Of a stretch of DNA of 64,000 bases, positions 1-44,043 are shown in pieces. Below the pieces are notes generated by a model. That model searched no databases, was not told the origin of the DNA, and worked only from the letters and a program-made list of their open reading frames with translations. The position numbers were made by a program, and so were the translations under genes. The first letter of the stretch is position 1; every line of letters starts with the position of its first letter. The DNA is from Paenirhizobium naphthalenivorans (GTDB taxonomy: Bacteria; Pseudomonadota; Alphaproteobacteria; Rhizobiales; Rhizobiaceae). Where the stretch lies: the NCBI RefSeq assembly GCF_007992095.1, contig NZ_BJZP01000007.1, positions 62,001-126,000 of the forward strand, written 5' to 3'.

Positions 1-162
1 GGTGCGAAGGGGCGGTAGCCCCATCATCGTATGACACCTATGCGAAAGGCGCATGGGGCGTGGCTAATGTCCAGCAGAGTGGCGCAATTTGCGGCACGAG
101 AGGGCACTTTACGCCGCCGTTCGGTCCGGAGCGCTCGTGAGGGCACTGACATGAAGTAAGGG

Positions 163-288
163 CAAAAAAATAACGCTCACCGGGGGAGGAGGATCCGGTG
201 AGCGTCATTTTGACAGACTGACGACTGGGAGGAGGAGTGCCGTCAGTCAAATCGACGCTGCGCTGGGAGGAGGAGTGCGCAGGGTCGA
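163..288 (-). ncRNA. trans-acting sRNA with three anti-Shine-Dalgarno hairpin loops (alpha-r14/NfeR1-like)
   Basis: Read on the minus strand this is about 125 nt folding into three consecutive hairpins, each exposing the same pyrimidine loop CTCCTCCC, the complement of a Shine-Dalgarno sequence. Hairpin 1 pairs 277-282 with 258-263, with an outer pairing of 284-287 with 253-256. Hairpin 2 pairs 241-248 with 216-223. Hairpin 3 pairs 195-205 with 173-183 and is followed by seven U residues, so it is also the terminator. A CGATAT -10 element (294-299, minus) lies 6-7 nt before the first hairpin; no good -35 is visible. From family knowledge, rhizobial alpha-r14 sRNAs (NfeR1 in Sinorhizobium) have this three-hairpin plan with repeated CCUCCUCCC motifs and repress many mRNAs at the ribosome binding site. 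The targets here are unknown. A reading frame crossing the region on the same strand is not coding. Confidence 0.85.
164..205 (-). terminator. Rho-independent terminator of the sRNA
   Basis: Perfect 11-bp stem (173-183 with 195-205) around an 11-nt loop that contains the third TCCTCCTCCC motif. It is followed on the minus strand by TATTTTTTT at 164-172. Confidence 0.85.
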
Positions 289-573
289 AGGTCATATCGG
301 CGAAAGCCCGCCGCTTGAGCAGAAGAAGTAATTTCCCTCGCGCTCTGTTGAAGTTCACATTAGGCTCAATTGTTGCTCTTGTGCAGTGCAATATCGTCAT
401 GGAAGCTATGCGTGAAGTGCATAAAGGAGGGCGCGTCACTGTCACCGTCGCTGTGCCGGTCCGCCCGATTGTCTTTTGCTGAAACAGAAGCCAATAGTTA
501 GAAAGCGGATTGGGCGCTCAGTTTGGCCGGTGATTTTGTCGCGGCGGGCTGGCCCTCGGGAGACGGAGACGGC
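289..573. other. intergenic region, promoter side of sRNA and DUF2157 gene
   Basis: Non-coding stretch between the sRNA 5' end and the first protein gene. Besides the CGATAT -10 of the sRNA I see no other RNA, repeat or convincing gene. The purine-rich GGAGACGGAGAC just before 574 is the ribosome binding site of the next gene. Positions 1-162, left of the sRNA, also hold nothing I can name. Confidence 0.5.
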
Positions 574-1677
574 ATGTATCGCGGAAAACTGAAGCGGGAT
601 CTCAATCTGTGGGTCGATAAAGGTCTGATTGATCAGGGGGTGGCCGATGCGCTGCTGAGTGACGTCGATTCTCGACGCTCGTCCTTCAGTGTCGGCGGCG
701 TTCTGATGATCCTCGCCGCGGTGCTTGTGGCCGCGTCGATCCTGCTCCTTATCGCCGCCAACTGGGAGGAGATTCCCCGATTGGCCAAAGTCGGCGGCAT
801 CGTCGCGCTGATCTGGATCTTCCATGGGAGCGCTGCGCTGGCCTTTGGTCGCGGCGCGGATCGTTTCGGTGGTGCGCTGTTGGTGCTGGGAAGTGCCTGT
901 TTCGGCGGTGCCATCGCGCTGATCGGCCAACTCTATCACCTGTCGGGTGACGCTTTCGACGCCATGCTCTTGTGGTTCGCCATGACCGTTTTGTCGGCGG
1001 CGGCGTTCCGCTCCAGCGCGCTCACGGTCATGGCCGGTTTTCTCGCCTTCGCCGTCTTTGGCGCCTATCTTGATGAATTCGATGCGGAGTGGCACGTGCT
1101 GTTCGGCTGGTGGCCGCTGCTGGCCAGCCTCGTCCTCGGCGTTCTCAGCCGCTGGACCGGCGCCGGACGGGCCGGTCATTTTGTCTATTTGCTGCTCATC
1201 GCCTGGCTCGGCTGGATCTACGCGCTGTGGCCGGAGGTGGAAACCGCAGCCGCCTATGCGGCGGGCGGAATGGTTCTCTTCCTGGCTGCGACCCTACCGT
1301 TGTCACCTGTTTCCGATGCCCTTCGTCGCCAGGGTGCGGCACCCGCCTTTTACGCCTTCGTACTGGCGCTGATGGGGCTTTGCCTGTTGCATCTCGACTG
1401 GACGGAGGGACGTGCCCTTGCGGGTCTCGGCCTCGTCACCATTGCCGTATCGCTGCTGGCATTGGCGCTTGATGGGCGCGACAATGGCGCGGTCCGCTAT
1501 CTGGCCTATACGGCCTTCGCCTGCGAGGTCCTCTATCTTTCCTTCGTTACGATTGATTCCATGCTCGGTACATCGGCCTTTTTCCTGCTCGCGGGCCTCG
1601 TGGTCGCCGTGCTGGCCGGGGTCGTGGTGCGCCTGGAGAAACTGTTTGCCAAGCGGGTGACGGAGGTGCGGCCATGA
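574..1677 (+). CDS. DUF2157 family membrane protein
   Basis: Predicted integral membrane protein of 367 aa; the family has no established biochemical role. The ATG at 574 is preferred to an upstream in-frame TTG (523) because a GGAGACGGAGAC tract precedes it and the product then begins with the family-like segment KRDLNLWVDKGLID. A soluble N-terminal stretch of about 40 residues is followed by roughly ten hydrophobic helices, the first at GGVLMILAAVLVAASILLL. The motifs WEEIPRLAKV and GQLYHLSGD are typical of DUF2157. Its last codons overlap the next start (ATGA), so the two genes are translationally coupled. In other bacteria the two domains are adjacent genes or are fused, which suggests one membrane complex; that last step is inference. 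Confidence 0.85.
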   Translation: MYRGKLKRDLNLWVDKGLIDQGVADALLSDVDSRRSSFSVGGVLMILAAVLVAASILLLIAANWEEIPRLAKVGGIVALIWIFHGSAALAFGRGADRFGGALLVLGSACFGGAIALIGQLYHLSGDAFDAMLLWFAMTVLSAAAFRSSALTVMAGFLAFAVFGAYLDEFDAEWHVLFGWWPLLASLVLGVLSRWTGAGRAGHFVYLLLIAWLGWIYALWPEVETAAAYAAGGMVLFLAATLPLSPVSDALRRQGAAPAFYAFVLALMGLCLLHLDWTEGRALAGLGLVTIAVSLLALALDGRDNGAVRYLAYTAFACEVLYLSFVTIDSMLGTSAFFLLAGLVVAVLAGVVVRLEKLFAKRVTEVRP

Positions 1678-2276
1678 GCGTGGGGAAAAAGAGCGTGACC
1701 GGCTGGCGCTATCTGGCGATCGGTCTCGGCCTGGCGCTGGCGCAGACCGCGGTGCTCGGCTCGATGGTCGAGAATCGGGCAAACCTTCTGCGGTCCGGGC
1801 AGGAGATCGTGCTGAAAACGGCGCCGGTCGATCCGCGTGACCTCTTGCGCGGTGACTATGTGATTCTGGCCTACGATATTTCCACCATTCCCGTGTCGCG
1901 CATCACCGGTCCGCGCCCGGCGCAAGCCGGATGGCAGTCTATGTGGGTGCGAGTCAGGCCGGGTGCGGACGGATACTGGGTTGTGGACGAAGCCTCCTTC
2001 GGGCCGCTGGGTGCGCAGCAGGGCAGCGTCGTCCTTCAGACCCAGCGTTTTCGCTATTTCGGCGCCGCAGACCTGACCGCCGAGGGGGCCGCGAGCCTGC
2101 GGGTCGATTATGGCATCGAGCGCTTCTACGTGCCGGAAGGCGAGGGCGGGGCGATCGAGACGGCGCGCAACGATGGTGAGGTTTCGGTCGCCGTCCGGGT
2201 AGGCGAGGGAGGTCAAAGCCAGATCCGCGAACTCAGGATCGACGGTGAGCCCCTTTTTCAGGAGGCGCTTTACTAG
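1674..2276 (+). CDS. GDYXXLXY domain-containing membrane-anchored protein
   Basis: A 200-aa protein with one N-terminal membrane helix (about residues 11-30, YLAIGLGLALAQTAVLG) and a mostly extracytoplasmic C-terminal region. The signature LRGDYVILAYDIS, near residues 58-70, matches the GDYxxLxY motif that names the family. No function is established. It starts inside the stop codon of the DUF2157 gene (ATGA overlap) and is its usual partner. Nothing follows for about 320 bases, so this is a two-gene operon. Confidence 0.85.
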   Translation: MSVGKKSVTGWRYLAIGLGLALAQTAVLGSMVENRANLLRSGQEIVLKTAPVDPRDLLRGDYVILAYDISTIPVSRITGPRPAQAGWQSMWVRVRPGADGYWVVDEASFGPLGAQQGSVVLQTQRFRYFGAADLTAEGAASLRVDYGIERFYVPEGEGGAIETARNDGEVSVAVRVGEGGQSQIRELRIDGEPLFQEALY

Positions 2277-2597: not shown

Positions 2598-2682
<85 letters not shown>

Positions 2683-2865
2683 GATTTGCCGAGCGGGTCG
2701 GTGCGAGACGGACCGGGTAAGCCCCGCCACTCCTTTCACCGTTTGCTTGGCAGGAATGCTTGACGATTGCGCCGAAGCCACGTCCGGGAACAGAAGATTC
2801 CGGCGTCGTGCTCAGGGAAACAACCGGCTGTCCGAGCACGGCCGCCACGACATGAAGGTAAGAAC

Positions 2866-4347
2866 ATGCAGGTTATCGAAACGCTCGCTGAAGGGCTGAA
2901 GCGCGAAATCAAGGTCGTCATTCCGGCCAAGGACATGGAAGCTCGCATGAACGAGCGCCTGGCCGACGCCAAGGACAAGGTCCGTATCAACGGCTTCCGT
3001 CCGGGCAAGGTTCCGGTCGGTCACCTGAAGAAGATGTATGGCAAGTCGATCATGGCCGAGCTGGTCAACGAGATCATCCGCGACAAGCCGACCGAGATCC
3101 TGTCGGAGCGCGGCGAAAAGTCGGCGACCCAGCCGGAAATCGCCATGACCGAGGACGAGGCCGAAGCCGAAAAGATCCTGTCCGCCCAGGCCGACCTCGA
3201 GTTCACGCTGTCCTACGAGATCATCCCGCCGATCGAACTGAAGCCGGTCGACGGCATCAAGGTCACCCGCGAAGTGGTTGAAGTCACCGATGCGGAAGTC
3301 GTCGAGCAGATCGAGAAGATCGCCGAAAGCGCCCGCTCGTTTGAAACCAAGGAAGGCAAGGCCGCCGAAGGCGACCGCGTCACCATGGATTACCTCGGCA
3401 AGGTCGATGGCGTTGCCTTCGACGGCGGCAAGGACGAGGACGCCGAACTGGTCATCGGTTCGAACCGCTTCATCCCCGGATTCGAAGAGCAGCTGGTCGG
3501 CCTCAAGGCCGGTGACGAAAAGGTCATCACCGTGACCTTCCCGGCCGATTACCCGGCCGCGAACCTCGCCGGCAAGGAAGCCACCTTCGACATCACCGTC
3601 AAGGACGTCGCAGCACCTGCAGCTATCGAGCTCAACGATGAGCTGGCCTCCAAGCTTGGCATCGAATCGCTCGACAAGCTGAAGGAAATCGTCCGCGGCC
3701 AGATCGAAAGCCAGTACGGCAACGTCACCCGCCAGAAGGTCAAGCGTCAGATCCTCGACCAGCTGGACGAGCTCTACAAGTTCGAGACTCCGGCAAAGCT
3801 GGTTGAGGCCGAGTTCGAGAACATCTGGCGCCAGATCAACACCGATCTCGCCCAGTCCGGCAAGACCTTCGCCGATGAAGACACGACCGAAGAAGAAGCC
3901 CGCACCGAATACCGCACGCTGGCCGAGCGCCGCGTTCGTCTGGGTCTCGTTCTCTCGGAAATCGGTGAAAAGGGTGGAGTCGAAGTCTCCGAGGACGAAA
4001 TGCAGCGCGCACTCTACGCCCAGCTGCAGCAGTTCCCGGGCCAGGAGAAGCAGATTCTCGACTTCTTCCGCAACACCCCCGGCGCTTCCGCCTCGCTGCG
4101 CGCTCCGATCTTCGAAGAGAAGGTCATCGACAAGCTGCTGGGCGAGATCTCGGTAACCGACAAGCCGGTCTCCAAGGAAGAGCTGCTGGCCGACGACGAA
4201 GCCGAAGACGGCGACAAGCCGGCCAAGAAGGCAGCCCCGAAGAAGAAGGCAGCCGCCAAGGCCGACGACGCCGCTGAAGGCGAAGACGCCGCTCCGAAGA
4301 AGAAGGCTGCCCCGAAGAAGAAGGCCGCCGAAGGCGACGCCGAGTAA
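2866..4347 (+). CDS. tig: trigger factor, ribosome-associated chaperone and prolyl isomerase
   Basis: A 493-aa trigger factor, which binds the ribosome exit tunnel and shields nascent chains. The N-terminal domain carries the ribosome-docking signature GFRPGKVP near residue 44. An FKBP-type peptidyl-prolyl isomerase domain follows (about residues 155-240, with [13 protein letters not shown] and [18 protein letters not shown]), then the helical C-terminal chaperone domain. The ATG at 2866 is chosen because the protein then begins [20 protein letters not shown]; an upstream in-frame start would add unrelated sequence. The C-terminus ends in a 45-residue tail of AAPKKKAA-type repeats mixed with acidic residues, which enteric trigger factors lack and which resembles histone H1 tails. 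A strong terminator follows at 4378. Confidence 0.97.
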
Positions 4348-17837: not shown

Positions 17838-17912
17838 TGGCACGCCCTAGGGGAGTCGAACCCCTCTTACCAGAATGAAAATCTGGTGTCCTAACCGATA
17901 GACGAAGGGCGC
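17838..17912 (-). tRNA. tRNA-Glu (anticodon UUC), copy 1
   Basis: A 75-nt tRNA on the minus strand. GCGCCCT pairs with AGGGCGT at the acceptor, with one terminal G-U pair. The anticodon loop reads TTTTCAT, the T-arm GGGGTTCGACTCCCC, and CCA is encoded at 17838-17840. Confidence 0.96.
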
Positions 17913-18124: not shown

Positions 18125-18199
18125 TGGCACGCCCTAGGGGAGTCGAACCCCTCTTACCAGAATGAAAATCTGGTGTCCTAACCGATAGACGAAGGGCGC
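18125..18199 (-). tRNA. tRNA-Glu (anticodon UUC), copy 2
   Basis: Identical in sequence to copy 1, 287 bases away, also minus strand, CCA encoded at 18125-18127. Confidence 0.96.
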
Positions 18200-43917: not shown

Positions 43918-44043
43918 GGCCAGCCTCATTCCACACGCGAGGCTTGGGATCGACCGGGAGAAATCCGGGAGGTTCCGCCGGTGGTATCCTCGAAAGAGGT
44001 GCTGTTTGTCTCGCGGGGGTTAAACCGGAAAAGGAGAAAAGGC

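Follow-up and report, generated by a model that had tools for sequence, protein, structure and literature searches.

An ar14 small RNA between tig and two DUF1127 genes in Paenirhizobium naphthalenivorans appears to be the positional orthologue of SmelC398, the tandem sister of NfeR1

The window, i.e., the 64,000-nucleotide stretch of Paenirhizobium naphthalenivorans DNA that was analysed, has close to its left end a small RNA gene of the ar14 family on the minus strand. To the right of this gene lie a divergent gene for a DUF2157 membrane protein, a gene for a GDYXXLXY protein, a tRNA gene and the trigger factor gene tig, all on the plus strand (Table 1). To the left, just past the edge of the window, the minus strand has two DUF1127 genes (C7:61813-61923 and C7:61420-61524), and the S. 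meliloti locus is built alike. The closest named relatives of the DUF2157 neighbour belong to two Rhizobium sp. MAGs (75-76%) and to Ciceribacter lividus (66%). Elsewhere in the window there is an Rfam rpsB RNA match (RF01815) at 43932-44043 on the plus strand, slightly above its cut-off (41.7 versus 40 bits), and a pair of minus-strand tRNA genes (17841-17912 and 18128-18199) that are identical in score and letters and separated by about 215 bases.

Table 1. Positions in the window of the ar14 RNA, its predicted promoter and the neighbouring genes.
Feature	Positions	Strand	Basis and remarks
TGCGCCTTTCGCAT box ahead of the first DUF1127 gene	40..53	-	Spaced module scan (L166 coordinate 3554); -10 and coding part lie outside the left edge
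U7 tract, intrinsic terminator, expected 3' end	164..170	-	Sequence
Hairpin 3, terminator stem	167..211	-	Fold; loop CCUCCUCCC at 192-184; mostly invariant, 2 of 16 pairs changed on both sides
ar14 sRNA body, Rfam RF02344, full model 1-123	168..293	-	cmscan 108.6 bits, E 3.9e-19, gathering cut-off 58.8
Hairpin 2	216..248	-	Fold; loop CCUCCUCCC at 235-227; 5 of 10 pairs changed on both sides
Hairpin 1	252..288	-	Fold; loop CCUCCUCCC at 273-265; 5 of 6 counted pairs changed on both sides
Predicted 5' leader, two small hairpins	294..349	-	Promoter geometry, fold; absent in NfeR1-type copies
Predicted -10 element TAATGT	357..362	-	Phylogenetic footprint: box, 44-47 nt, -10-like hexamer
Conserved promoter core ATATTGCACTGCACAA	379..394	-	Strongly conserved in 23 aligned promoters; TGCACTGCACAA part nearly invariant there
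TGCA-N6-GCAT box, published form of the NfeR1 LsrB site	408..421	-	Sequence; motif in PMC10746234
DUF2157 membrane protein gene, divergent neighbour, marker of the syntenic locus	574..1677	+	Pfam PF09925
GDYXXLXY protein gene	1674..2276	+	Pfam PF14345
tRNA gene	2598..2679	+	Rfam tRNA; tRNA-Leu at the corresponding place in S. meliloti (L164)
Trigger factor gene tig	2863..4347	+	Pfam PF05697, PF05698, PF00254

Within the ar14 gene the minus strand carries CTCCTCCC three times (272-265, 234-227 and 191-184), every time in a hairpin loop, while a second-order Markov model lets one expect about 0.001 occurrences per 126 nt on one strand. The first-pass annotation had described three minus-strand hairpins with an anti-Shine-Dalgarno (anti-SD) loop in each, repeated far beyond chance, and both statements hold: all three hairpins are located by sequence and fold, and three copies stand against the expected 0.001. 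The repetition is, at the same time, the defining trait of a known family, and therefore less surprising than it seemed on first inspection. An additional copy of CTCCTCCC starts at 771 on the minus strand; CCTCCTCCC occurs three times on the two strands of the whole 64 kb, always at the ar14 feature (273-265, 235-227 and 192-184, minus). The minus strand folds with -60.8 kcal/mol (z = -10.2), a value equalled by none of 200 shuffles, and the plus strand folds as well (z = -4.8, 0 of 200 shuffles). The RNA is assigned to the minus strand because this is where the U7 tract follows hairpin 3 (170-164) and where the Rfam match lies. With its 17-pair stem followed by U7, the third hairpin has the form of an intrinsic terminator; a simple terminator scan flagged none at hairpin 3, presumably because the loop exceeds the 8-nt limit of the scan.

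The window RNA is a genuine member of the ar14 (alpha-r14) family, an RNA of an already known kind, and the name proposed for it in the first-pass annotation is correct: the covariance search that it had proposed as a check matches the model from end to end, above the cut-off of the family. It shares with RF02344 the three CCUCCUCCC-loop hairpins, the third of which is the terminator, and a host that is Rhizobiaceae-like to judge by the named relatives of the DUF2157 neighbour, but differs in the leader of about 56 nt that is predicted from the promoter footprint ahead of the modelled 5' end. Published accounts of the family show a matching strand and three-seed plan (PMC10746234), and in them the same three hairpins recur while their stems drift (PMC10746234; PMC7143759).

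The stems covary among orthologues. From 35 loci with window-type context, 4 that lacked the strict loop pattern and 8 repeats were removed, which left 23 distinct rows; the constancy of the loops in this alignment is a consequence of how the rows were picked, i.e., by loop motif, and does not count as evidence. Standard pairs make up 99% of the pair cells, a share in which the tested structure is favoured, having been predicted from the same alignment. Changes on both sides are found in 12 of the 32 pairs, compared with 6.7 in shuffles, and compensatory changes in 63 cells, compared with 16.5 in shuffles and 1-6 when the structure is slid along the 23 rows. The number of further pair types in these rows is not above that of shuffles (395 of 500 were as high). 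Most of the covariation resides in hairpins 1 and 2, and hairpin 3 is nearly invariant.

Consider, against this background, the possibility that the feature is something else: a plus-strand element made of SD-rich repeats, a coding region, or a mere cluster of terminators. The plus strand does fold, and open frames overlap the feature (one of 81 aa on the plus strand, 237-482, and one of 135 aa on the minus strand, 38-445), but the U7 tract, the fit to the ar14 model and the promoter module are all on the minus strand and the compensatory changes in the stems speak for RNA, so that readings of this kind are extremely improbable. Membership of the CcsR1 family (RF02791) was rejected, with 30.3 bits against a cut-off of 65.3. 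The Rhodobacter CcsR1-4 RNAs of the CIN1 locus resemble the window RNA in their CCUCCUCCC motif and adjoining DUF1127 genes, but the window ar14 precedes its DUF1127 genes and has a predicted promoter and a terminator of its own. AbcR1 and AbcR2 (alpha-r15) resemble it in having anti-SD motifs and, as far as its predicted targets and regulator go, in their transporter targets (PMC7143759) and their control by LsrB or VtlR (PMC10746234, PMC12595884); they differ from it in family and structure, in the number of anti-SD motifs, which is two, and in binding Hfq (PMC7143759).

Upstream of the loci of the genus there is a strongly conserved block, consisting of TGCR-N6-GCAT, CTTCCATG, a TTGCACTGCACAA core and a TATATT-like -10 element 44-47 nt from the box. 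The corresponding module in the window is TGCACTTCACGCAT-N45-TAATGT at 421-357. A TGCR-N6-GCAY box at 44-47 nt from a -10-like hexamer precedes 23 of 30 orthologous loci in the genus, and the other seven lack the module in the scanned form, deviating in box or spacing. A stricter version of the module (44-45 nt, TANNNT) has a single match in the 64 kb, the one at ar14, and likewise a single match in 15 simulated sequences of 64 kb. The -10 element TAATGT is weak, and a plain sigma-70 scan of positions 1-600 returned no promoter.

The mean identity over the 23 loci is 0.81 in the body, 0.72 in the promoter and 0.42 in the leader between them, and in spite of this poor conservation the leader stretch of the window folds into small hairpins. 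The distance from the -10 element to loop 1 is 83 nt in the window copy and 19-26 nt in the C9-type and second tandem copies for which the module was found, a contrast between long and short spacing that covers part of the copies only, as many loci gave no module by the rules of the scan. The place of the conserved promoter upstream puts the start of transcription probably near 349 on the minus strand, with a predicted RNA length of about 185 nt rather than the transcript of about 125 nt that was first assumed, the promoter being situated about 60 nt further upstream. The interval 163-288, which had been assigned to the RNA, fits the three hairpins; the Rfam match runs from 293 to 168, and the 5' end likely lies further upstream, near 349. 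Concerning the regulator, the printed VtlR motif fits the ar14 promoter in 10 of 15 letters, which does not rise above background, as 116 of the 413 window pieces fit it equally well, and the identity of a putative activator is for this reason based solely on the spaced box and the literature.

In the genome itself two ar14 genes score over the cut-off, the window copy and one at C9:59348-59472 (119.7 bits). Three weak further matches (E 0.07-0.5) were dismissed as noise, as 9 of 14 control genomes also give matches in the same search at E up to 10; none of the 14 has one over the ar14 cut-off. Within the genus, ar14 is over the cut-off in all 60 genomes searched, this one included, and within the family in 73 of 81, with no match at E 0.01 in 3 of the 81. 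When the best scorers of the genus are considered, for which loci were fetched from 30 of the 60 genomes, ar14 adjoins phosphoglucomutase-family, acetyltransferase or sulfatase genes in 29 (L001, L006-L022, L024-L034), and L023 is the only one of the 30 with ar14 next to DUF2157. When the loci are instead those fetched with the DUF2157 protein, all 30 from the genus have the triple anti-SD motif at most 1.5 kb from that gene. Among the matches listed, with coordinates compared by hand, there is an ar14 match within about 500 bases of DUF2157 in at least 20 of the 28 other genomes that have this gene, and at the family level DUF2157 or tig falls within the fetched 1.5 kb in 22 of 29 loci of other genomes (best scorers). 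With linkage in 30 of 30 genus and 22 of 29 family loci, the place beside tig and DUF2157 is, judged by gene order, a widely kept home of ar14 in the genomes sampled.

Several Rhizobiaceae have ar14 arrays, with two or three genes each, at DUF2157 or tig (L103, L105, L107, L108, L109 and L164; also L104, L110, L117, L123, L125, L127 and L128). Six of these loci (L103, L105, L107, L108, L109, L164) gave the module at both copies, and in all six the first copy has a long leader and the second a short one.

NfeR1 is known as an expressed, Hfq-independent RNA. To see where it stands in such an array, consider S. meliloti Ak57 (CP090106.1, L164), where two tandem ar14 genes lie between tRNA-Leu/tig and two DUF1127 genes. 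This record is titled plasmid pSymB, yet it is 3.7 Mb long and has tig, tRNA-Leu and trmFO, and it looks like a mislabelled chromosome. Before copy 2 there is TGCATCACTTGCAT at 4204 and TGC-N11-GCA at 4160; if transcription starts at 4276, they begin at -72 and -116, matching the positions at which the LsrB and NtrC sites of NfeR1 have been published (PMC10746234); copy 2 is therefore taken as NfeR1. The published cross-species -35 consensus CTTAGAC is absent before either copy. Copy 1 has the long geometry, with 117 nt from the -10 element to loop 1, while NfeR1 has 25 nt. Schluter et al. 2010 list SmelC397, which is NfeR1, at 1667491-1667614 and SmelC398, of 217 nt, at 1667766-1667982, both on the minus strand; the former is confirmed by deep sequencing, and the latter is a candidate confirmed in the same way, with no Northern cited for it in that list (PMC2873474). 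When SmelC398 is placed on the Ak57 sequence with NfeR1 as anchor, on the assumption that no indel separates Ak57 from Rm1021, it spans 3908-4124, i.e., it is copy 1, from 9 nt past the -10 element to the terminator. The spacing of box and -10 element seen in the genus holds for both tandem copies of S. meliloti, and under the no-indel assumption the published ends of SmelC397 as well as those of SmelC398 agree with it. The same unit had been predicted as sm7' by Valverde et al. 2008, its detection then being awaited (PMC2573895).

The window RNA appears to be the orthologue by position of SmelC398, the tandem sister of NfeR1, as judged by locus, leader and promoter geometry: it is an ar14 gene beside tRNA-Leu/tig with a long predicted leader and with DUF1127 genes downstream. 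It has in common with SmelC398/sm7' the locus from tRNA-Leu/tig to DUF1127, the orientation, the promoter spacing and a leader ahead of three anti-SD hairpins, and it differs in that the leader is shorter (83 nt, versus 117, separate the -10 element from loop 1) and in that the genome has no tandem NfeR1 copy beside the window ar14. Since the S. meliloti counterpart is listed as an RNA of 217 nt, the leader is more than a deduction from the promoter. The identity of the window RNA is 0.73 to S. meliloti copy 1 and 0.68 to NfeR1, a small gap in a short alignment. Of the 14 multi-copy loci, 10 have a first copy that resembles the window RNA more than their other copies do, 3 (L110, L123, L128) have a later copy that does so, and one is a tie; in all seven tandem loci where the first copy has a long leader (L103, L104, L105, L107, L108, L109, L164) it is the first copy that is closer, at 0.72-0.78.

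The alternative is that the window RNA is a true orthologue of NfeR1 (SmelC397, smrC14), an RNA of about 125 nt starting at about 293 and with the role of NfeR1 in the NtrBC loop. The two have the family and the three anti-SD seeds in common, the ntrB start of the genome keeps GGGAGG, and the TGCA-N6-GCAT box of LsrB type is present, although this box, at 421-408, is common to first-type copies and hence not diagnostic. The three loci where a later copy is closer also fit this alternative, copy 2 of L123 (0.75) being among the closest of all, and they are set against the ten where the first copy is closer, again with small gaps and a short alignment. NfeR1 is, however, the second tandem copy and has a short leader, with the -10 element immediately before the 5' end of ar14 (25 nt to loop 1); second tandem copies with module found have 21-26 nt, and the window copy has 83. 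The TGC-N11-GCA site of NtrC type at -101 to -116 is absent at the window copy, where the sole match between -180 and 0 is at -41; as the site is described as restricted to plant symbionts (PMC10746234), its absence is weak evidence. In this genome it is the C9 copy that has the short geometry, though it too is without the TGC-N11-GCA site. The promoter geometry, the lack of an NtrC-type site and the order of the copies make orthology with NfeR1 unlikely. The plan of alpha-r14 and NfeR1 that had been ascribed to the RNA thus applies as far as the family is concerned, but not to the particular copy, which by synteny and promoter geometry is of the SmelC398 type.

A further question is whether the copy is expressed at all, or is a decayed or silent paralogue that has been kept by descent while the C9 copy does the work. 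Out of six S. meliloti ar14 copies only one is reported as reliably visible by Northern (PMC7143759), and since no Northern is cited for SmelC398, this type of copy may be weakly expressed; the weak -10 element of the window copy points the same way. Yet the stems covary over the 23 orthologues, the promoter core is conserved, and SmelC398 is listed from deep sequencing (PMC2873474), so that a silent window copy is quite unlikely.

Turning to candidate targets, the pattern GGGAGGAG-N4..11-ATG gives 40 rows in the genome (at most 39 distinct sites, as one is listed with two ATGs), and the reversed pattern gives 7. Purine-rich SDs are expected even without any sRNA, and the excess therefore shows that targets are available, not that they were selected by the sRNA. 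Thirty of the 40 rows, corresponding to 29 distinct sites, were fetched; 17 sites have open frames of at least 100 aa and 12 have shorter ones, and the Pfam scan, which covered the 17 longer frames, gave a match for each. Five of the 17 are transport proteins by these matches: three periplasmic binding proteins, an ABC ATPase and a sulphur transporter. The other 12 include five oxidoreductases and two sugar enzymes. The start of ntrB reads CGGGAGGCTGC-ATG, with six contiguous bases complementary to the seed (GGGAGG), compared with the eight reported in S. meliloti; RNAduplex energies with ntrB were given no weight, being free of controls and blind to structure. In S. meliloti, the three seeds of NfeR1 are redundant on transporter mRNAs and the silencing of ntrB requires NfeR1 seeds (PMC10746234).

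The preferred reading, which is given a probability of roughly 0.8 and has family membership, covarying structure, synteny, promoter footprint and start-site excess as its basis, is that the window copy encodes a trans-acting antisense ar14 sRNA of about 185 nt, an orthologue by position of SmelC398, with a LysR-type-box promoter and three loops that block SDs. Transcription of the minus strand would start near 349 from a promoter of sigma-70 type, whose box for a LysR-type (LsrB- or VtlR-like) activator begins about 59 nt before the -10 element, and would end near 164 at hairpin 3. Three equivalent single-stranded CCUCCUCCC loops would pair with purine-rich SDs (GGGAGGAG and shorter forms), and this pairing would block the binding of 30S subunits and lower the translation of mRNAs for transporters and catabolic enzymes, possibly also that of ntrBC.

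The promoter module is not confined to ar14. The first DUF1127 gene is preceded by the ar14-like spaced module TGCGCCTTTCGCAT-N45-TATATT, and the first DUF1127 gene at the tig locus of S. meliloti by TGCACGCCGCGCAT-N44-TATATT, while the scan found no module at the second gene of either pair. One DUF1127 protein binds RNA in Rhodobacter. In Brucella melitensis, the LysR-type VtlR activates the sRNA AbcR2 together with three DUF1127 genes (PMC12595884), in S. meliloti LsrB activates NfeR1 (PMC10746234), and the occurrence of DUF1127 proteins beside CcsR-like RNAs has been described under the name CIN1 locus (PMC10253847). The common module suggests that ar14 and the first DUF1127 gene may be under joint control of LsrB/VtlR type. 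A bolder proposal, speculative and on balance doubtful, is that the long-leader ar14 linked to tig and DUF2157 forms a separate, ancient functional subclass, fired with its DUF1127 neighbours by one LysR-type regulator, in which the DUF1127 proteins would mature or deliver the RNA and a leader hairpin would serve as protein handle, so that the whole would make up a compact Hfq-independent silencing module.

The analysis places the ar14 copy of an unstudied genome among paralogues that are easily confused, and what it corrects is which paralogue this is and how long its RNA probably is. The leader-bearing sister of NfeR1, which emerged from sequencing in S. meliloti in 2010, would be the copy that Rhizobiaceae keep at a conserved place beside tig or DUF2157. 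Finally, because ar14 and DUF1127 have a promoter module in common, anti-SD sRNAs may be linked to LsrB/VtlR regulators and to DUF1127 proteins, a connection that is open to test.
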